Below are positions 4,584 to 42,965 of a DNA stretch of 51,925 nt, one piece after another. The position numbers and the translations under genes were made by a program. Position 1 is the first letter of the stretch, and each line of letters opens with the position of its first letter. The notes under the pieces are model-generated. The model saw only the letters and a list, made by a program, of their open reading frames with translations, made no database searches and had not been told where the DNA came from. Origin of the DNA: Syntrophobacter sp. SbD2 (GTDB lineage: Bacteria > Desulfobacterota > Binatia > UBA9968); NCBI GenBank assembly GCA_945889495.1, contig CAMDBU010000020.1, forward strand, positions 1-51,925, written 5' to 3'.

Positions 4584-5599
4584 TTAAGAACTTCTTTCAG
4601 CTTCGCCACTACGCCGGCCGGCGTCTTGAACAAGCGCGCGATGGTGCGCTGCAACTCGTCGCCGCTCATCGGATCGATGCCCAACCGCGATTTCTTGGTG
4701 TCAGCGAGAAATTCCGGATCTTTCATGGTGTCGGCAAAGGCCCGACGCAACGTATCCGCGCGCTCCCTGGCCGTGCGCGGCGGTAGGACGTAGGAATAGG
4801 TCATGTCGGCGACATCGTGAATGCCGGCTTGAATCAACTGTTTGGCGTCGTCGCTCTTCGCCATGCCGATGGCCAGCGGAATTTTCGGCAGCTCGCCGAT
4901 AGCTTGAGGCACGGTCTGCAAAACGACAATCGCATCGCCGCCATCGAGCGCCCGCGTCCAAGTCGCCTTGAGCGAGTCCCAAGTCCAACCGCAGACCCCG
5001 GAGAGTTCGCCGCCCTCGGCGGCCAAACGGACATCGGCAATGCCTTTGTAGCCCGAGACCAGTTGGATCGGCAGGCCCAACGCTTCTTTCAAGATCAGCG
5101 GCACATTATGGGTCGCTGAGCCCGGTCCGGTGGCGCCGAGTTTGACCGGCGTCTTCGACGCCGCCCATCTTTCGTAGCTGTTGATGCCGCTCGCCTTGGT
5201 CATGGCGCAGACGGCTTTATCTTTCACCGGTACGCCGACATGCTCGAACTTCGCGGCATCGAACTCGATGCCGGGCCAGCCGAGCAGTTGCTGCACGAAC
5301 AAGCCACCGTTGATATTGCCGAGGGTCAGACCATCCGGCTTGGCGACGCGAAAAACATGATTGGCCGCGACCAGGCTGCCGGCGCCGGTCATATTTTCCA
5401 CCACCACCGCGGGATTGCCGGGAATATGACGGCCGATATGGCGCGAGATCGCCCGGCTGTAGACATCGAAGCCGCCGCCGGCGCTAAAGCCCACCACCAA
5501 GCGCAAAGTCTTGCCGCGGTAGAAATTCTCCTGCGCCCCCGACGGCGCCGGCCAAAGTCCACTGAGCAAGATGAACAATAAAAAGTAACCTACAACCAT
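4580..5599 (-). CDS. TctC/Bug-type tripartite tricarboxylate transporter substrate-binding protein
   Basis: A 339-residue periplasmic binding protein of the TctC (Bug) family, which binds di- and tricarboxylates and related acids. After a signal peptide ending SGAQ come the family segments TLRLVVGFSAGGGFDVYSR, VVENMTGAGSLVAAN and ATGPGSATHNV. The ATG at 5599 is preferred over an upstream TTG at 5623 because GAGAGGGG precedes it at good spacing and the hydrophobic signal sequence starts there. TctA and TctB membrane partners are absent from the window. It is the first gene of a coupled operon with the ThDP decarboxylase subunits. Confidence 0.85.
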   Translation of the reverse strand: MVVGYFLLFILLSGLWPAPSGAQENFYRGKTLRLVVGFSAGGGFDVYSRAISRHIGRHIPGNPAVVVENMTGAGSLVAANHVFRVAKPDGLTLGNINGGLFVQQLLGWPGIEFDAAKFEHVGVPVKDKAVCAMTKASGINSYERWAASKTPVKLGATGPGSATHNVPLILKEALGLPIQLVSGYKGIADVRLAAEGGELSGVCGWTWDSLKATWTRALDGGDAIVVLQTVPQAIGELPKIPLAIGMAKSDDAKQLIQAGIHDVADMTYSYVLPPRTARERADTLRRAFADTMKDPEFLADTKKSRLGIDPMSGDELQRTIARLFKTPAGVVAKLKEVLK

Positions 5600-5764: not shown

Positions 5765-6754
5765 ATGTTCGACGCAATGAAGAAAAACTCTCTAACCTTG
5801 GTAATCGGCGCCGTCATGTTCCTGCTCACGGCCGGGCCATCGCGCGCCCAGGACAAGTCCGGCCCGGAAAAAGTCCGCATCGCCATTGCCACCAGCTCCA
5901 TGGCGTTTCTCGTGCCGTTCGTCGCCAAGGACCGCGGCTTTTATGCGAAGCATGGCTCGGAAGTCGAGCTCATCGTCATGCGGCCGAACATCGCCATGGC
6001 GGCGCTACTCGGCGGCGACATCGACTACGCCGAACTGATCGGCTCGATCATCCGCTCGGCGGCGCGCAACCTACCGGTGCGGGCGATCTCCACCAGCATC
6101 AAAGCGCCATTCTTCAGCGTCATCGGCCAGAATAAGTTTAAAAGCATCAAAGATCTCAAAGGCGCGGTCATCGGGCTCACCTCCATCGGTGGCACCAACC
6201 ACGTTAGCACCCGCATGACCCTGAAACAGTTCGGCATGGATATCGACAAGGACGTGAAGATCCTCGCCATCGGCGAGGAGAAGCTGATGGTCGACACCTT
6301 CAAGATGGGCCGGGTCGACGCCATCGTCGTCGCGCCGCCGTTTTCCGTGCAGTTAAAACGCGAAGGGTTTCCGATATTGGCCAACACCTCGGATCACGTC
6401 GTCATCCCGTTCTCCGGCCTGGGCGCCACCCAGGAGAAAATCAAAACCAATCGCGCCCAGGTGAAGAAAGTCTTGAAGGCCGAGATCGAAGCGCTGCGCT
6501 TCATCCACGGCAACGCGGCTGGGACCATCGAAGTCATCCGCAAGCGCTTCAACATGGACGAAAAACTCGCCCGCGAGTCCTACGACGCCGTGGTCAACTC
6601 CTTCAGCCGCGACGGCCGGGTGCCGCTCGACGGCGTCGACATCCTGCTACAAATCGAAAAGGACGCCAAGGTGATCCCAGCGACAGTCACGCCGCAAATG
6701 ATCGTCGAAGCGTCCTTGGCCGAAGAAGCGTTGAAAGAGTTGGGCGGGAAGTAG
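5765..6754 (+). CDS. NMT1-type ABC transporter substrate-binding protein
   Basis: A third NMT1/SsuA-like periplasmic binding protein, 329 residues, clearly diverged from the tandem pair at 286-2310. The signal peptide ends SRAQ; the body has VRIAIATSSMAFLVPFVAKDRGF at the first ligand-lobe strand and GVDIL near the end. The ATG at 5765 is preferred because GAAGGAG lies 11 bases before it; earlier in-frame starts lack signal character. It diverges from the TctC operon, so the 165-base gap between them likely carries both promoters, although I cannot identify clear boxes. No permease or ATPase follows. Ligand unknown. Confidence 0.8.
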   Translation: MFDAMKKNSLTLVIGAVMFLLTAGPSRAQDKSGPEKVRIAIATSSMAFLVPFVAKDRGFYAKHGSEVELIVMRPNIAMAALLGGDIDYAELIGSIIRSAARNLPVRAISTSIKAPFFSVIGQNKFKSIKDLKGAVIGLTSIGGTNHVSTRMTLKQFGMDIDKDVKILAIGEEKLMVDTFKMGRVDAIVVAPPFSVQLKREGFPILANTSDHVVIPFSGLGATQEKIKTNRAQVKKVLKAEIEALRFIHGNAAGTIEVIRKRFNMDEKLARESYDAVVNSFSRDGRVPLDGVDILLQIEKDAKVIPATVTPQMIVEASLAEEALKELGGK

Positions 6755-36805: not shown

Positions 36806-37672
36806 ATGCTGGCGATCATCTTCGGCCTACTGGCCTCCTTCTGGTTTGCCCTCTCCATGGTGCTCATCAACCGTGGCGTGTTGGTGATCGATTACTTCCG
36901 TGGCCTGCTCACTAATCTCGGCGTCAACGCGCTGTTTCTCTGGCTTTATATTTGGCTATTCGTCGACCGCGTCGAGCTTTGGCTGCCGGCCAATTTGATT
37001 TTCGTCCTGGTCGGAATTTTCGTTCCCGGCGTGGCGCGCTTCTTTATGTTCAAAGGCATGGAGCGCTTGGGCGCGTCGATCACCTCTTGTCTAACCAACA
37101 GCACGCCGCTGTTCGCCACCGTGTTCGCCGTGGCCTTTCTCCAAGAACACCCAAGCCAGACCAATCTCCTCGGCACCTTTTCCATCGTCGCCGGCATCGT
37201 CGCGCTTAATTGGAAAGGCACGACGAAAACCTGGCGCAGCCGCGATCTCTTATTCCCGCTAGCCTCCGCCTTCCTGTTCGCCGGCCGCGACAACATGGTC
37301 CGCTTCGGCCTGCTGCACATCCACTCGCCGCTAGTCGGCGCCACCATCGCCGCCACCACGTCGTTCGTCACCATGACGCTGCTGTACCAGCTGTTCGAAG
37401 AAAAAAAGCCGCTGCAAGCAACCGCAAGAAAAGGCTTCCGACTCTTCGCCGCCGCCGGCTTCCTGAACTTCCTTTCCTATGCCTTCGCCTACACCGCCCT
37501 CAGCATGGAACGCGTCTCCATCATCTCGCCGCTGATCAACGGCTCGTCGCTATTTGTCCTGCCGCTATCGGCGTTGCTGCTCAAAGACGTCGAGAAACTC
37601 ACGGCGCGAAAAATCGGCGCCACGGTGCTGGTGATTATCGGGGTGCTTTTGATTTCGTGGGAGAAGATGTAG
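36806..37672 (+). CDS. EamA/DMT-family membrane transporter
   Basis: A 288-residue protein of the drug/metabolite transporter superfamily with ten predicted membrane segments in two EamA repeats (the second begins near residue 148). Typical segments are FFMFKGMERLGASITS and YTALSMERVSIISPLING at the repeat ends. The substrate cannot be read from sequence. Its last 118 bases occur again, diverged, at 38318-38435, on the other side of a toxin-antitoxin pair. This makes its 3' end the likely point where the following island joined the chromosome. Confidence 0.88.
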   Translation: MLAIIFGLLASFWFALSMVLINRGVLVIDYFRGLLTNLGVNALFLWLYIWLFVDRVELWLPANLIFVLVGIFVPGVARFFMFKGMERLGASITSCLTNSTPLFATVFAVAFLQEHPSQTNLLGTFSIVAGIVALNWKGTTKTWRSRDLLFPLASAFLFAGRDNMVRFGLLHIHSPLVGATIAATTSFVTMTLLYQLFEEKKPLQATARKGFRLFAAAGFLNFLSYAFAYTALSMERVSIISPLINGSSLFVLPLSALLLKDVEKLTARKIGATVLVIIGVLLISWEKM

Positions 37673-37727
37673 CAAAGAATGGCGAACGTCCATTGACACT
37701 CCAGTATGGCCACATTAGGATTTTAAC

Positions 37728-38012
37728 GTGAAATTTGAATTTGCCCGTGAGAAGGATGGCAAAGTTCATTTTAGGAAACGCCACCCTGACATCGCTGTGC
37801 GGGAAGTCAAGGAATTGTTCCGTTTTAGGATGGCTATCCAGCCAGCGTATGGTGGCGCCTTAAAGGGAATCGGCCACACACGTTCGCGCCGATTCCTCGT
37901 GGTCATCTTCAAATGGGGCAGAAATAAAGACTACGTCTTCATCATCACAGCCTACTCCGCGAAACGGGCGCATGTTGAGGTTTATCTAAAAACGGTTGGA
38001 GGAGTTCCATGA
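37728..38012 (+). CDS. BrnT-like toxin
   Basis: A 94-residue protein resembling BrnT/RelE-fold ribonuclease toxins: KFEF opening, FRKRHPDIAVREV helix, GHTRSRRFLVVIF strand and the ending VFIITAYSAKRAHVEVYL, which matches the ITAR.A...E pattern of BrnT. It overlaps the next gene by 4 bases (ATGA), toxin first and antitoxin second, as in brnTA. The region is visibly more AT-rich than its neighbours, suggesting transfer. RNase activity is inferred from the family. Confidence 0.65.
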   Translation: MKFEFAREKDGKVHFRKRHPDIAVREVKELFRFRMAIQPAYGGALKGIGHTRSRRFLVVIFKWGRNKDYVFIITAYSAKRAHVEVYLKTVGGVP

Positions 38013-38278
38013 AAAAGAAGTGCAAGAGATGCCGTTCGGAACTGTATCAAGCAGAAGATTTGAAATGGTTCTGTCTCTCCTGTTTGGCTGCGGAGATTGA
38101 AGCACGCGACGAGAAAAACAGTGTTAAAGGAAACTGGAGTGTTCTTGAACCGGAGACCAAAGCCGTAACCCTGCGATTGAGTGAGCAGGATATTGCCAAA
38201 GCCAAAGCACGCGCTAGGAAGCTAGGAACACCGTATCAGACGCTATTGAAAGGCTTCATTCACCAAGCCTTGTCTTAA
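38009..38278 (+). CDS. CopG/BrnA-like antitoxin with N-terminal zinc ribbon
   Basis: An 89-residue protein. The C-terminal half (VTLRLSEQDIAKAKARA, TPYQTLLKGFIHQAL) matches the ribbon-helix-helix region of CopG/BrnA antitoxins. The N-terminus carries Cys5-x2-Cys8 and Cys22-x2-Cys25, a small zinc ribbon not usual in this antitoxin family. It is coupled to the BrnT-like gene by ATGA overlap. It should bind the toxin and its own promoter. The ribbon could add metal or redox control, or strengthen DNA binding; that is inference. Confidence 0.7.
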   Translation: MKKKCKRCRSELYQAEDLKWFCLSCLAAEIEARDEKNSVKGNWSVLEPETKAVTLRLSEQDIAKAKARARKLGTPYQTLLKGFIHQALS

Positions 38279-38317
38279 TTAGAACAGCGACCGACTTCTT
38301 TGTACGACCATCGTCGT

Positions 38318-38435
38318 TCATCCTGCCGCTATCCGATTTGCTGTTGAAAGACGTCGAAAAGCTCACGCCACGGAAATCGGCGCCACGGTGCTGGTTATAC
38401 TCGGCGTGTTTTTGATTTCGTGGGAAAAGATGTAA
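38318..38435 (+). pseudogene. Diverged second copy of the EamA gene 3' end
   Basis: This stretch aligns with positions 37555-37672, the last 118 bases of the EamA transporter gene, including TCCTGCCGCTATC, AATCGGCGCCACGGTGCTGG and TTTGATTTCGTGGGA, and ends at the same codon position with TAA in place of TAG. One base is missing (CACGCCACGGAAATC against CACGGCGCGAAAAATC), breaking the frame, and several substitutions are seen. It has no start and is non-functional. It flanks the toxin-antitoxin pair as a direct repeat. Confidence 0.85.
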
Positions 38436-38475: not shown

Positions 38476-40926
38476 GTGAGCGATCGTCTCCTACGCAATC
38501 TACAACCGGTGCTTGCCTTTCTGGTCGTCGGAGTGATCCTCAACTTCACCGTAGAATACGCCGCGCCGCAATTGAACGAGCTGCTCAAGGAGTCACGGTA
38601 TTTGATCCCGACCGTCGCAGCCTCTTGCGTGATAACTCTTTTGGCTTGGTACGCCTATCGGGAGCAGCACGAGCGCAATCTCAAGGCTGAGTTCGCCCTC
38701 TTCACCACTAGCGAACTGCTCAAACCGGAGGACGTCGGATTTAAAAGCTGCGCTCCCGGCGATGAAGTGCCGGGAAACATCAGGCCCTATTACACGACTT
38801 ACATTCCACGCACCGCGATTCGCTACGACGAACGCCATCACGACAAGCCCAGCCGCACTTACCGCGAACGGGACTTGGTCGCGGAGTTGGCGGAAGGCAC
38901 CAGCTTACTCTTGATCGGCAATCCCACCGACGGCAAGACTCGCACGTTGTACGAAGTGGTTCGGCGGCTGGAAAATTTTATAGTGATACGAACCAGGTCG
39001 AACCGCGCGCCCTCGGACGACGCGCTGCAACTGCTGGCCAACAAAAACGTCGTCTACCTGCTCGACGACTTGAATACTTATACCGACGTGCGGCCCGATC
39101 CGAACGAAATCTATGACAAGATTTTGCGAACGAAAGCGCGCTGCGCGCTAGCGGCCGCCTGTAGAAACGGGCCCCAGCTTGCCGCGCTCAACACGCCCCG
39201 ATCAGCGATTCAGAGACTTTACGAGTCTTTCGCTTTGCAGTTGCAGTTGACCAAGGCGAGCAAAGAACAAGAAAACCAGCTGATACAGGCCGTCGGTCAG
39301 GTCGCCGACGGTGCCGTCACCACCCTCGGCTCCATCTGCATGGCCGGGACGCTCAGGGACATGCACATCCGTTTCACCCGCGACGGCCTGGCTAAGGAAG
39401 TGCAGGCATGTCATATGGCGATCCAATTATTGGCTACCGGAAACGTTATGCCGTTCACCCATCGCCGCATCCAGGGCGTCTTGGCCGATGTGTTTCAACG
39501 ACCGTTGAGTTCGTCGCAAGTGCGCGACGCCCTGGCTACTCTGGAGCAGGATGGCTTTTTGCGGTCATCGGCTGAATCCGATCCGGTGATTATCGGCGAT
39601 GAAGCGTACTTCGTCGGACCGACTGCCCGCCCATTCTATCTCCGCAACCGCCCAGCGGAAAGCGACCTGCCGCTACTGAGCAGCACACTGAAAAGACTTG
39701 ATGACGCGGAGGGCCTGTTTTACTTGGCGCTGTCTCGCGGCGAGCAAGGTGAAAAGGATAACTTTGCCTTCGAAATCGATCATTACGACCAGCTCGCATC
39801 CCATTTCCAAAACCACCAGGATTTAGCCTCGCGCCAATGGGTTGGCTGGTCACTCTACAACAAGGGTTTCAGATTGGGGCAGCTCGGCCGTTCAAAGGAC
39901 GAGATCGCCTGCTACAACGAAGTCGAGAATCGCTTCGACTCCGCACCAGCGTTAGAATTGTGCGAGCAAGTGGCGAAAACGCTCAACAATAAGGGCGTCG
40001 CATTGAGGCGAATAGGGGAATCTGAGAATGCCATTGCCTGCTACAACGAAGTCGATAAGCGCTTTGGATCTACGCCAGAATTGGACGTACGTGAGCAGCT
40101 CGCTAAAGCGCTCTTCAACAAGGGGATCACATTCGCACAGCTCAATCGGCCCAAGGAGGCCATCGAATGTTACGATGAATTAGACAGGCGTTTTGGCTCC
40201 GCGCCAGAGTTAGTGCTGCGCGAGCAAGTAGCGAAAGCGCTTAACAACAAGGGCATCACATGGGAAAAAATTCGGCGCCACGTCGAAAACGAAATCGCGT
40301 GCTTCGACGAGGTCGACAAGCGCTTCGGCTCTGCGCCAGAGTTAGTGTTGCGCGAGCAAGTAGCGAAAGCACTTTTCAATAAAGGCGTCACATTCGGGCA
40401 ACTTGACCAATCTGAGAACGCCATTAACTGCTACGATGAGATCGACAAGCGTTTCGGCGCCGCGCCAGAGTTAGTGCTGCGTGAGCAAGTAGCGAAAGCG
40501 CTTAACAATAAAGGCGTTAGATTCTCACAGCTCGGCATTCCCGGAAACGCCATCAACTGCTTCGACGAGGTCGACAAGCGTTTTGCCTCTGCACCAGATT
40601 TAGTGTTACGCGAGCAGGTCGCAAAAGCGCTATGCAACAAAGGGGTCACGTTAGGTTCTATCCCTGGCCGATCTGAGGACGCCATCGCTTGTTACAACGA
40701 AGTCGACAAGCGCTTCGGCTCTGCGCGAGAGTCGGTGCTGCGCGAATCAGTTGCTACCGCGCTCCACAACAAGGGTGCTAGATTAATACAGATATGTTGC
40801 TTCGATGACGCGACGATCTGTTTAAAGGTCATCATCGAACGTTACTCTGAATCCCAAGAGCCAGAATTAATGAAGATAGTTGAACTTGCGCACGATGCTC
40901 TGAAGAGGACCGCGAGTAGGACATAA
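38476..40926 (+). CDS. Membrane-anchored P-loop (STAND-like) NTPase with eight TPR-like repeats
   Basis: An 816-residue protein. Two hydrophobic segments (residues about 11-28 and 43-60) anchor the N-terminus. Walker A is GNPTDGKT (148-155), and Walker B-like VVYLLDDLN lies at 192-200, followed by an Arg-containing AAACRNGP segment like sensor 1. Residues about 327-380 look like a winged helix (SSSQVRDALATLEQDGFL). From 454 to the end are eight TPR-like units of 43-44 residues with the consensus VAKALNNKGV..AI.CYDEVDKRFGSAPEL. NTPase, winged helix and repeats is the STAND plan, known in many bacterial defence proteins. The start is GTG with AGAGGG upstream. Function unproven; adjacency to three toxin-antitoxin pairs supports defence. 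Confidence 0.75.
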   Translation: MSDRLLRNLQPVLAFLVVGVILNFTVEYAAPQLNELLKESRYLIPTVAASCVITLLAWYAYREQHERNLKAEFALFTTSELLKPEDVGFKSCAPGDEVPGNIRPYYTTYIPRTAIRYDERHHDKPSRTYRERDLVAELAEGTSLLLIGNPTDGKTRTLYEVVRRLENFIVIRTRSNRAPSDDALQLLANKNVVYLLDDLNTYTDVRPDPNEIYDKILRTKARCALAAACRNGPQLAALNTPRSAIQRLYESFALQLQLTKASKEQENQLIQAVGQVADGAVTTLGSICMAGTLRDMHIRFTRDGLAKEVQACHMAIQLLATGNVMPFTHRRIQGVLADVFQRPLSSSQVRDALATLEQDGFLRSSAESDPVIIGDEAYFVGPTARPFYLRNRPAESDLPLLSSTLKRLDDAEGLFYLALSRGEQGEKDNFAFEIDHYDQLASHFQNHQDLASRQWVGWSLYNKGFRLGQLGRSKDEIACYNEVENRFDSAPALELCEQVAKTLNNKGVALRRIGESENAIACYNEVDKRFGSTPELDVREQLAKALFNKGITFAQLNRPKEAIECYDELDRRFGSAPELVLREQVAKALNNKGITWEKIRRHVENEIACFDEVDKRFGSAPELVLREQVAKALFNKGVTFGQLDQSENAINCYDEIDKRFGAAPELVLREQVAKALNNKGVRFSQLGIPGNAINCFDEVDKRFASAPDLVLREQVAKALCNKGVTLGSIPGRSEDAIACYNEVDKRFGSARESVLRESVATALHNKGARLIQICCFDDATICLKVIIERYSESQEPELMKIVELAHDALKRTASRT
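39970..40749 (+). repeat. Tandem 129-132 base coding repeats (TPR-like units 2-7)
   Basis: Six consecutive coding units of 129 or 132 bases. At the DNA level several share long near-identical stretches such as GCGCCAGAGTTAGTGCTGCG and GAGCAAGTAGCGAAAGCGCT. The most similar are units 3 to 6, which implies recent duplication or gene conversion. The flanking units 1 and 8 are more diverged. Confidence 0.85.
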
Positions 40927-41095
40927 TGCTTCGTAATTTAAACTGCGGATAACTAAGAACGCGCAGCCATTCCTCAATAGTGAGGAAAACCAGTGCGACG
41001 ATCCTGCGGCTTTGCCAAAGCGGAACCAGCTTGGAGGACACTCCCGCGAACAGCAACGCCGAAACGAGCGCATTGGTGTCCAGGACGACACGCAC
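40832..41095 (-). pseudogene. Truncated PIN-domain (VapC-like) toxin
   Basis: The first 54 or so residues match PIN-domain toxins: RVVLDTNALVSALLF with the catalytic Asp6, then LTIEEWLRVLSYPQFKL with the conserved acidic pair. Intact family members run about 130-140 residues with two more conserved aspartates. Here family similarity stops near position 40933, and the rest of the 87-codon frame reads antisense into the end of the NTPase gene. The 3' half seems to have been lost when that gene arrived. The start is GTG, overlapping the antitoxin stop by one base (TAGTG). It is probably inactive. Confidence 0.75.
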
Positions 41096-41328
41096 TACCG
41101 CGTCCTAGCCCAGCGGATGGCGGCTGTGACATCTTTCTCGGTGAGGTCAAGAGCTTTCATCTTGCTCCGAACGCTTTCGACCCGCACTCCGACGCGGCGC
41201 TTAACGACCGGACGCAGCACGATCTCCTCGCCGCGAATACTCACTTCGAAATAATCGGTTTGCGGCAGCTTATCGACGATCGCCTTGGGTAAAGTGATCT
41301 GATTTTTGACGGTTTTTTTAGCGAGCAT
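41095..41328 (-). CDS. AbrB/SpoVT-type antitoxin of a PIN toxin pair
   Basis: A 77-residue protein with an AbrB-like swapped-hairpin fold: KTVKNQITLPKAIVDKLPQTDYFEV, then IRGEEIVLRPV. The C-terminal tail (RSKMKALDLTEKDVTAAIRWAR) is typical of the part that wraps the toxin in this family. It overlaps the PIN gene by one base. With its toxin truncated, it may now persist as a DNA-binding remnant or an anti-addiction gene. Confidence 0.8.
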   Translation of the reverse strand: MLAKKTVKNQITLPKAIVDKLPQTDYFEVSIRGEEIVLRPVVKRRVGVRVESVRSKMKALDLTEKDVTAAIRWARTR

Positions 41329-41358: not shown

Positions 41359-41682
41359 TTACAGAACCGTTGCGATCTCGCCCGGGCGCCGACGGCGCAC
41401 TCGCACGGTGACGTCGATCCGATCGCCTAACCGATTGATAATCCCCATCAACCGCTCGACGCTCATGCGCCGAAAATCGGCATTTCGAATACGCGAAAAA
41501 TCGCCAGCGTCGATACCCGTACGATCTTGCGCCTGCCGAACCGTGAGACCCAGACCATCGATTATTTTGATGATCCGCGTCGCCAGAATCGCTTTCAACT
41601 GACGCACATCAGCGTCATCCATGCCCAAATCCCGGTAGACATTCCCACTACCTCGGATGACTTCGAGCTTATCCTTTTTCAT
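41359..41682 (-). CDS. HigA-like XRE-family antitoxin
   Basis: A 107-residue protein with a helix-turn-helix of the XRE type (GLTVRQAQDRTGIDAGDFSRIRNADFRRMSVERL) and a basic C-terminal end (VRVRRRRPGE). It follows the toxin gene with a 4-base ATGA overlap, the toxin-first order of higBA modules. It should neutralise the Gp49-like toxin and repress the pair's promoter. Confidence 0.85.
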   Translation of the reverse strand: MKKDKLEVIRGSGNVYRDLGMDDADVRQLKAILATRIIKIIDGLGLTVRQAQDRTGIDAGDFSRIRNADFRRMSVERLMGIINRLGDRIDVTVRVRRRRPGEIATVL

Positions 41683-42041
41683 CGCAACATCTCCTTCAAG
41701 CGCTTCAACCGGTCTTTGATCAACTCGATCTCATGCCGCGGCGTCTTTATCCCTTGCGTCGATTTTTTCTGAAATGCGTGAATGACCCAGAGGTCATCGC
41801 CGAGCTGCACCGCGTACACGACCCGAAACGCATTGCCGCGAAACGGCAAGGCGATTTCAAACACTCCCGAACCGATTCCCTTCATGGGCTTGGCGATAGC
41901 CGCCTTGCCGCCCTCAGCGGCCACGCTCAGCGCATCGATCATAATCTCGCGAGCAACTTCCGGAAAGGCATCGAATGCCCTTCGCGCAGATGCCAACCAA
42001 GAGATCGGTCGAATCAGTGGCATAAGTTCCGACTTGCTCAA
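41679..42041 (-). CDS. HigB-like (Gp49/RelE-superfamily) toxin
   Basis: A 120-residue toxin of the phage-derived Gp49-like group: WLASARRAFDAFPEVAREIM near the start, KPMKGIGSGVFEIALPFRGNAFRVVYAV in the centre, and WVIHAFQKKSTQGIKTPRHEIELI at the end, which holds the basic residues typical of ribosome-dependent mRNA cleavage in this fold. Full length and in frame. It precedes its XRE antitoxin. The pair closes the right side of the island. Confidence 0.87.
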   Translation of the reverse strand: MSKSELMPLIRPISWLASARRAFDAFPEVAREIMIDALSVAAEGGKAAIAKPMKGIGSGVFEIALPFRGNAFRVVYAVQLGDDLWVIHAFQKKSTQGIKTPRHEIELIKDRLKRLKEMLR

Positions 42042-42239: not shown

Positions 42240-42965
42240 TCAATGCACCGTCGGCCCGCCGTCGTCGTCCTTGCCGCCGGGTAACACTTGAAAGCGCTTT
42301 TTCAGCCGGGCCAGACGGCGGCGGTCTTGATAGATTTTGAACTGCTCCCAGGGATTGATACCGCCACCGCGCAGGTAAATGTAGCCGAACACCATGCCGC
42401 CGAGATGAGCCAGGTGGGCGATGCCGCTTTGGCCTGAGGTGACCGCGGAATACACTGCGATGGCGCCGATGATCCAGACAAAATGCTTCATCTTGATCGG
42501 GAACAAAAAATAAAAGTACACGACACGGTCCGGGTAGATCAGGCCGTAGGCGAGCAGCAGTCCATAGACGCCGGCCGATGCGCCAATGCTTGGGCCCAAC
42601 TGGCCGGGCAGGAACACCACATTCAAGATTCCGCCACCGATCACCGTGACGAAAAAATATTTGAGAAAGAATTCCTGGCCCCAGCGCCGTTCGAGGTCGC
42701 CGCCGAACATCCACAACGCCAGCATGTTGAAGAGCAAATGAAACAGCCCGCCATGGAGAAACTGGTAGGTGAACAGCTGCCAGAGATAAAACTGGTTGAG
42801 CACCCAATGCGGCACCAGGCCGAGATAGGCAGTCAGCGGCAAATGGACGCTGATGTCATTGACGGTCTGAACGACGAACATCGCGACGTTGACGATCAGA
42901 AGAAACTTCACCGCCGGCGTCACACTACCACCGCCGAAACTCATCTGTCGGGTTTGATATTGCAT
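42240..42965 (-). CDS. Rhomboid-family intramembrane serine protease
   Basis: A 241-residue membrane protease with six or so hydrophobic segments. The catalytic dyad is Ser130 in GASAG and His187 in LAHLGGMVFG; the oxyanion residues are in HLLFNML (His76, Asn80). A short cytoplasmic C-terminus is basic, then ends in GGKDDDGG. It cleaves membrane-spanning substrates; no partner is indicated. It lies just outside the toxin-antitoxin island and starts with ATG. Confidence 0.93.
   Translation of the reverse strand: MQYQTRQMSFGGGSVTPAVKFLLIVNVAMFVVQTVNDISVHLPLTAYLGLVPHWVLNQFYLWQLFTYQFLHGGLFHLLFNMLALWMFGGDLERRWGQEFFLKYFFVTVIGGGILNVVFLPGQLGPSIGASAGVYGLLLAYGLIYPDRVVYFYFLFPIKMKHFVWIIGAIAVYSAVTSGQSGIAHLAHLGGMVFGYIYLRGGGINPWEQFKIYQDRRRLARLKKRFQVLPGGKDDDGGPTVH

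Follow-up and report, generated by a model that had tools for sequence, protein, structure and literature searches.

Toxin-antitoxin pairs behind ordinary genes with a spare gene tail on the far side: a putative insertion scar at an eamA locus of Syntrophobacter sp. SbD2

The stretch of DNA analysed here, hereafter the window, spans 51,925 nucleotides of contig CAMDBU010000020.1 of the Syntrophobacter sp. SbD2 assembly (GCA_945889495.1). It contains a complete gene for an EamA-family transporter of 288 amino acids (36806-37672, plus strand; Pfam EamA, E = 3.6e-23), 81% identical at the amino-acid level to its orthologue in the congeneric genome G001. The last ~127 bases of this gene recur at 38309-38435, directly behind a putative toxin gene and a CopG-type antitoxin gene. 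Both copies lie on the plus strand and were delimited by alignment and by an EamA-tail profile. Copy 1 is the 3' end of the complete gene (37545-37672), whereas copy 2 (38309-38435) is a displaced, 5'-truncated 3' end that includes the stop codon and carries a 1-nt deletion. From position 37557 onwards, 98 of the 115 aligned bases are identical, and the BLAST E-value between the two tails (2.8e-32) leads us to reject chance similarity. A profile of the EamA tails of nine genomes matches 38309-38434 over profile positions 38-164 (E = 6e-31), so that homology begins near 37545 in the first copy and near 38309 in the second; the two tails are 764 bases apart. The diverged repeat with its lost base had already been described in the initial annotation, which had also seen no integrase, and both observations hold: Pfam matched no integrase family among the ten ORFs scanned around the site. 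No transposase was found among the same ten ORFs, and ARAGORN detected no tRNA in the window.

The putative toxin gene (37728-38012, plus strand) is separated from eamA by a 55-nt spacer, starts with GTG and encodes 94 amino acids. It comes first and overlaps by 4 bases the antitoxin gene (38009-38278, plus strand, 89 codons), the C-terminal part of which matches the CopG_antitoxin family (PF12441) at 29 bits, just above the cut-off of 28; the match of the antitoxin to NCBIfam BrnA is weak and below the cut-off. The N-terminal part of the antitoxin (38009-38090), which precedes the CopG-type part, features a CxxC...CxxC pattern that appears zinc-ribbon-like by eye and is also present in the full-length homologues. 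To our knowledge, such an N-terminal part is unusual for this class of antitoxins. The putative toxin has no match in Pfam, PADLOC or PDB, and its best NCBIfam match (E = 0.1) is at chance level. The family is conserved in relatives, homologues 72-87% identical to it occurring at four further loci. For four homologues, Pfam gave no match even at an E-value of 10, the BrnT profile included. The AlphaFold2 model of the toxin (pLDDT 45) is too poor for a structure search. The description of the two genes as a BrnT-like/CopG-like pair therefore stands for the antitoxin, with PF12441 above cut-off, and lacks a usable profile match for the toxin; the label BrnT-like we take to be a family resemblance seen by eye. 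In the BrnTA family, the toxin gene comes first and overlaps a CopG-type antitoxin gene. The putative pair in the window is likewise arranged toxin first, with an overlapping CopG/BrnA-type antitoxin gene directly behind, but differs from BrnTA in that the toxin does not match the BrnT profile, while the antitoxin matches PF12441 and carries the CxxC...CxxC N-terminus. Downstream of the antitoxin gene, a 24-nt tail (38279-38302, plus strand) leads into a novel joint.

Several accessory genes fill the remaining spacer. A gene for a TPR protein of 816 amino acids (38476-40926, plus strand), with a weak nSTAND3 match below the cut-off, starts 40 nt behind the displaced EamA tail. It is followed on the minus strand by an 87-residue PIN_3-like toxin ORF (40832-41095) just below the Pfam cut-off, a MazE/AbrB-type antitoxin ORF (41095-41328) with a weak match below the cut-off, and the Pfam-supported genes of a HigA-like HTH_37 antitoxin (41359-41682) and a HigB-like toxin (41679-42041; Gp49, PF05973). 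The conserved far border of the spacer is a rhomboid-family gene (42240-42965, minus strand), assigned through the Pfam Rhomboid match of its G001 orthologue. Two paralogous genes in tandem lie at 247-2292, the left end of the window, and share 68% DNA identity over 919 nt.

The window genome (G000) is a draft of 5.64 Mb in 239 contigs, with four congeners among the 97 genomes searched. In G001, the gene order is eamA, the toxin-antitoxin (TA) pair, an EamA tail (5341-5473), a HigBA pair on the opposite strand and another, longer EamA tail (6272-6461), so that the module matching the HigBA genes of the window sits between two displaced tails. The joint is common to the two genomes: the 24 bases behind the antitoxin agree at 21 of 24 positions with G001, compared with 9 of 24 in G003. 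The insertion is therefore older than the split of the two lineages or was passed on with its joint. Empty sites were identified in G004 and G017, in which eamA has a single tail and is followed by the rhomboid gene after ~160-190 nt, a spacer too short to hold the TPR gene of the window. G010, from the same family, has a TPR-like gene behind eamA and no second EamA tail; its eamA contig is identical (4014/4014 bases) to the metagenome-assembled genome (MAG) Deltaproteobacteria bacterium NC_groundwater_353. In G003, the contig starts inside the antitoxin gene, the end of which precedes the rhomboid gene with no EamA tail between them. The opposite border is affected as well. In G001 (locus L040; contig C14, 9522-11830), 217-nt, 91%-identical copies of the 3' end of the rhomboid gene enclose a Fic gene (E = 1e-18 for Pfam Fic, with SoFic as the best PADLOC match). 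Judging from these arrangements, the insertion at eamA is probably old, and modules appear to have accumulated behind the gene. In the eamA-rhomboid spacer, small modules thus collect at both borders, and a duplicated gene tail accompanies several of them.

The TA pair occurs once in the window, and its toxin was found in 7 of the 148 genomes searched, the window genome included, with two of the matches being weak. Direct repeats flank three of seven further loci at which the pair or its antitoxin occurs. The G013 pair is flanked by the end of what appears by eye to be a DUF420-like membrane gene (63 nt, 89%), the pair on contig C630 of G017 by the end of a gene read by eye as HTH, with two extra copies, and a truncated antitoxin on C76 of G010 by a 146-nt repeat (73%). 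Flanking repeats were not found at the remaining four loci, three of which are cut by a contig end or truncated. L072 (G013) and L073 (G009) carry the pair or what is left of it, and just downstream of the antitoxin a short sequence looks by eye like the opening codons of a livH-type permease gene; it may be a fragment of a gene that once adjoined the pair and was carried along with it.

The frequency of this layout at other toxin genes was assessed in a survey of the window genome covering 30 of its 44 PIN-domain loci and all 9 Gp49/HigB loci, from which two loci with too little flanking sequence were removed, leaving 37. Loci were scored as flanked when the 1.5 kb on either side shared a direct repeat of at least 45 nt (70% identity, E = 1e-6). 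Flanking repeats were present at 12 of the 37 loci, compared with 4 of 86 short ORFs (Fisher P = 9e-5) and 7 of 240 random positions (Fisher P = 1.5e-7); the short ORFs, of 80-200 codons from 400 kb of the genome, may include TA genes, and two of the four that are flanked represent one locus. With a laxer cut-off, the numbers were 12/37 toxin loci, 7/51 short ORFs and 14/240 random positions. In G001, where 15 of the 18 PIN loci were sampled, 3 of the 15 are flanked, as against 0 of 70 short ORFs (P = 0.005) and 21 of 240 random positions (P = 0.16); given how often random positions are flanked in this genome, enrichment there holds against the short ORFs only. None of 15 loci sampled from the 23 PIN loci of G028, a single-contig genome of the same order, is repeat-flanked. 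PIN-domain matches number 44 in the window genome (5.6 Mb), compared with 18 in G001 and 23 in G028.

Seven of the 12 flanked loci in the window genome (L137, L138, L148, L149, L152, L159 and L161) read as a complete gene, a TA pair and a displaced 3' tail. The others comprise a 5'-end copy (L129), an almost full-length gene copy (L157) and three unassigned loci (L127, L144 and L150). In G001, the gene-TA-tail layout is found at two of the three flanked loci, L221 (luciferase-like gene) and L237 (Thy1 gene). Targets vary (EamA, rhomboid, hydrolase, Thy1 and other genes), as does the orientation of the TA pair relative to the target. Repeats range from 55 to 343 nt, with one of 1127 nt, and are imperfect (74-93% identity), copies differing at ~6-26% of positions. 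Repeat-flanked cargo consists of TA, PIN, HigB and Fic genes, not restriction-modification genes. From this survey, it appears that small TA pairs in the window genome often sit directly behind an ordinary gene, a spare copy of whose end lies beyond the pair.

A scan of 837 genes (at least 100 codons; 921 kb), with paralogues near full length excluded, revealed three genes with displaced 3' ends besides those of the window and L040, and five with displaced 5' ends, some of them in related neighbouring genes. Between such gene-end copies, cargo other than TA genes includes, by eye, a CinA-like gene, a gene for a large protein and one for a small membrane protein. Gene-end duplication is therefore not limited to 3' ends or to TA cargo. 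Two further arrangements in the window genome are worth recording. At L188 (C40, 4324-9833), a full hydrolase copy (~80% DNA identity), the full target gene and a displaced 338-nt tail lie in a row. At L092 (C15, 4525-5701), an insertion on the 5' side, copies of the 5' end of a luciferase-like gene (235 nt including upstream sequence; 89%) flank a small Cys-rich ORF, which seems antitoxin-like by eye and received no Pfam confirmation.

The origin of the two copies was examined by comparing them with alleles of other lineages. According to the initial annotation, a downstream copy closer to the allele of another lineage would indicate homologous exchange. This expectation is not borne out at eamA: over 116 bases and among the alleles sampled, the downstream tail is closest to the resident gene (85.2%), followed by G010 (80.0%), the G001 gene (79.1%) and the G001 copy (78.3%). 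The test is blunted because G001 shares the junction and because site patterns suggest later gene conversion. Among the tails of the window and G001, 8 sites group within a genome, 4 by copy across species and 0 crosswise, and these 12 sites suggest one old insertion followed by gene conversion between the tails. Four more pairs were set against sequences from relatives, and in three of them (C40, C43 and the rhomboid pair of G001) the copies are likewise closest to each other. The exception is C74, where the complete gene shares 88.7% with G001 and slightly less, 87.2%, with its own displaced tail; this tail adjoins the gene that follows the single-copy orthologue in G010, as expected if the displaced tail is the native end. 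G003 was considered as an empty site for C74 and rejected, since only a 265-nt tail of the esterase-like gene is present there (L199; C488, 2852-3116). This tail lies beside the conserved neighbour, with other genes behind, and is perhaps another displaced tail. In G001 (L195; C22, 4452-5658), the esterase-like gene of C74 is split into two pieces ~125 nt apart, perhaps a trace of insertion or excision. The displaced tail of C133 shares 88.1% with another gene of a tandem array, compared with 84.8% with its neighbour, and recombination between paralogues is an alternative in that setting.

Differences between copies were also counted by codon position in 16 pairs; L129 (frame not found), L127, L144, L150, L157, L225 and the G013, G017 and G010 pairs were left out. 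They amount to 80, 51 and 198 at the first, second and third positions, respectively, so that third positions account for 198 of 329 (60%). Working EamA orthologues of the window and G001 give 49, 21 and 97 (97/167 = 0.58). With the constraint estimated from these orthologues, a plain duplicate in which one copy decays is expected to show a third-position share of ~0.42. The difference between 60% and 42% over the 16 pairs corresponds to P = 7e-11, a rough value, since every pair was judged by a rate ratio taken from one gene, independence of sites and loci was assumed and the pairs were chosen for a clear gene end. P stays below 1e-6 when any one of the first 13 pairs is left out. In the window pair alone, 10 of 16 differences fall at third positions, which does not differ significantly from decay (P = 0.085). 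Some displaced copies carry frameshifts or stops, which speak for decay after arrival. Private changes at first and second positions are mostly on the displaced copy, with parsimony leaving most sites unpolarised and the codon positions of L138 set aside. Behind the stop codon of the displaced tail, the sequence does not significantly resemble the spacer that follows eamA, either in the window or in relatives. Overall, the differences between copies look more like those between working alleles of sister species than like those of a decaying duplicate. These counts would most naturally mean that, while they diverged, the two copies spent much of the time as functional alleles in related lineages, and that recombination later brought them together.

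With moderate confidence, we interpret the repeat as the scar of the insertion of a TA cassette at the 3' end of eamA by one-sided homologous recombination with DNA from a relative. DNA from a related lineage, carrying the eamA 3' end and the TA pair, would recombine homologously within eamA on one side. On the other side, the incoming DNA would be linked to an internal point of the resident eamA with little homology between the two, as in homology-facilitated illegitimate recombination. The resident tail would be pushed downstream in a 5'-truncated form, and eamA would stay whole because the incoming DNA supplies the gene end. Alternatively, a small circle made of the gene tail and the TA pair may have entered through one crossover, yielding the same final structure. 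One-sided recombination would also stack newer cassettes nearer to the target gene, and gene conversion may later have acted between the two eamA tails. The cassette would be retained by addiction, as its loss through recombination between the repeats would be punished; the frequency of TA modules as cargo would fit such a role. One-sided recombination accounts for the complete gene, for the locus-specific 5' truncation of the displaced copy and for the allele-like copies. On the side of the presumed homologous anchor, the complete target gene lies directly beside the cassette, as the model needs. Ku was not found in the window genome, which is 95.6% complete, making classical non-homologous end joining unlikely for the second joint. 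A donor arrangement was not found in the genomes searched, and we infer a donor lineage from the pattern of the copies.

A plain long target duplication, in which the TA pair inserts by a transposition-like step with widely staggered breaks, the end of the host gene is copied on both sides and one copy decays, is a possible, though rather unlikely, alternative. The geometry is that described for restriction-modification genes (PMC3874152, PMC1643837), the private first- and second-position changes fall mostly on the displaced copy, and the copies are closest to each other in the window and in three of four other pairs. Such an origin is at odds with the third-position share of 0.60 in the 16 pairs, where ~0.42 is expected (P = 7e-11 under rough assumptions), with the spread of repeat lengths from 55 to 343 nt (one 1127) and with the lack of a transposase among the ten ORFs scanned. 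If the gene tail and the TA pair were duplicated in tandem within the genome and the second TA pair was then lost or replaced, a joint between the TA tail and the gene interior would also arise, and G001 does have two tails in a row. Nevertheless, we hold it to be improbable, as loss of the second TA pair is required at each of several loci, the pair is present once in the window with the next gene 40 nt behind the displaced tail, and the differences between copies are allele-like. Both plain target duplication and tandem duplication are weakened by these data.

Site-specific integration at gene 3' ends by a tyrosine recombinase, with the integrase since lost, would explain that the gene is recreated at insertion. 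Integrase-type integration was rejected as very unlikely: no integrase was found among the ten ORFs scanned, the targets are many and different, and the repeats are imperfect and of many lengths, with neither a fixed target nor an identical core. The proposal of the initial annotation, integration at a gene end or exchange with a foreign allele, is thus retained in part. The insertion layout that rebuilds the gene 3' end recurs at other loci, and the codon pattern of the 16 pairs fits exchange with a diverged allele, but varied targets and repeats of 55-343 nt (one 1127) argue against the action of an integrase. An assembly artefact, conceivable in a draft of 239 contigs that is probably metagenomic, can scarcely be entertained and was rejected, since the joint has an identical layout in the separate genome G001, 12 of 37 loci are affected, and copy differences of ~6-26% are not made by misassembly.

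Insertion with long target duplication has reportedly been described for restriction-modification genes of Helicobacter pylori (by Nobusato et al., in 2000, as cited in PMC3874152, PMC1643837 and PMC3031569). The arrangement reported here is similar in that an addiction-type unit lies between direct copies of host sequence that are variable in length, ~100 bp, with no known mobile element. A TA-less relative with a single copy of the target, by which long target duplication is recognized, is represented by both G004 and G017. Here, however, the inserted units are type II TA pairs, together with a Fic gene, and not restriction-modification genes. In addition, they are more often located behind gene 3' ends, affect about one third of the loci tested in one genome, and feature copies that differ like alleles of sister species. 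Restriction-modification genes are described to insert with long target duplications of variable length, of the order of 100 bp (PMC3874152, PMC1643837). A limited literature search returned no report of long target duplication for TA modules; the signature is known for restriction-modification genes, and its frequency at TA modules here looks new.

Similar geometries have been described in other settings. In Vibrio cholerae, PMC5361080 describes the sequential displacement of T6SS effector genes in arrays of immunity genes, proposed to occur via homology-facilitated illegitimate recombination. Those arrays resemble the present loci in the upstream homologous anchor, the downstream illegitimate joint, the old 3' end pushed back and the stacking of modules; in contrast, the end displaced in V. 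cholerae is that of the effector gene itself, while at the present loci it comes from unrelated genes, which remain complete. Homology-facilitated illegitimate recombination, with one homologous and one illegitimate end, has been observed in the laboratory in transformable bacteria and in E. coli conjugation (PMC5361080, PMC3240628), whereas here it is deduced from scars. Transposed Arabidopsis genes are also found between long direct repeats of host sequence, for which insertion of a circle was proposed (PMC2869330); the likeness lies in moved genes between long direct repeats, and the differences in the eukaryotic host and the gene classes involved. Direct repeats around variable segments are generally not uncommon: they surround 10-18% of such segments in three species, but most of these repeats are shorter than 30 bp (PMC2884548).

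How acquired TA systems become fixed in a population is described as not yet understood in the review PMC2654758. The question addressed here is how chromosomal TA modules enter new places without a mobile element and are then retained. A single genome offers about a dozen scars in which both copies of the target can be read, along with modules stacked behind one gene and relatives that retain the empty site, so that sequence comparison could reveal where the insertions came from, in which order they occurred and how old they are. As a tentative and rather doubtful generalization, type II TA pairs in this bacterial family may move as integrase-free cassettes, made of a gene 3' end and a TA pair, that rebuild the gene of a relative, displace the old tail and become fixed by addiction, while the repeats let cassettes pile up or leave as circles. 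If this is true, ordinary gene ends would be docking sites for selfish TA modules.
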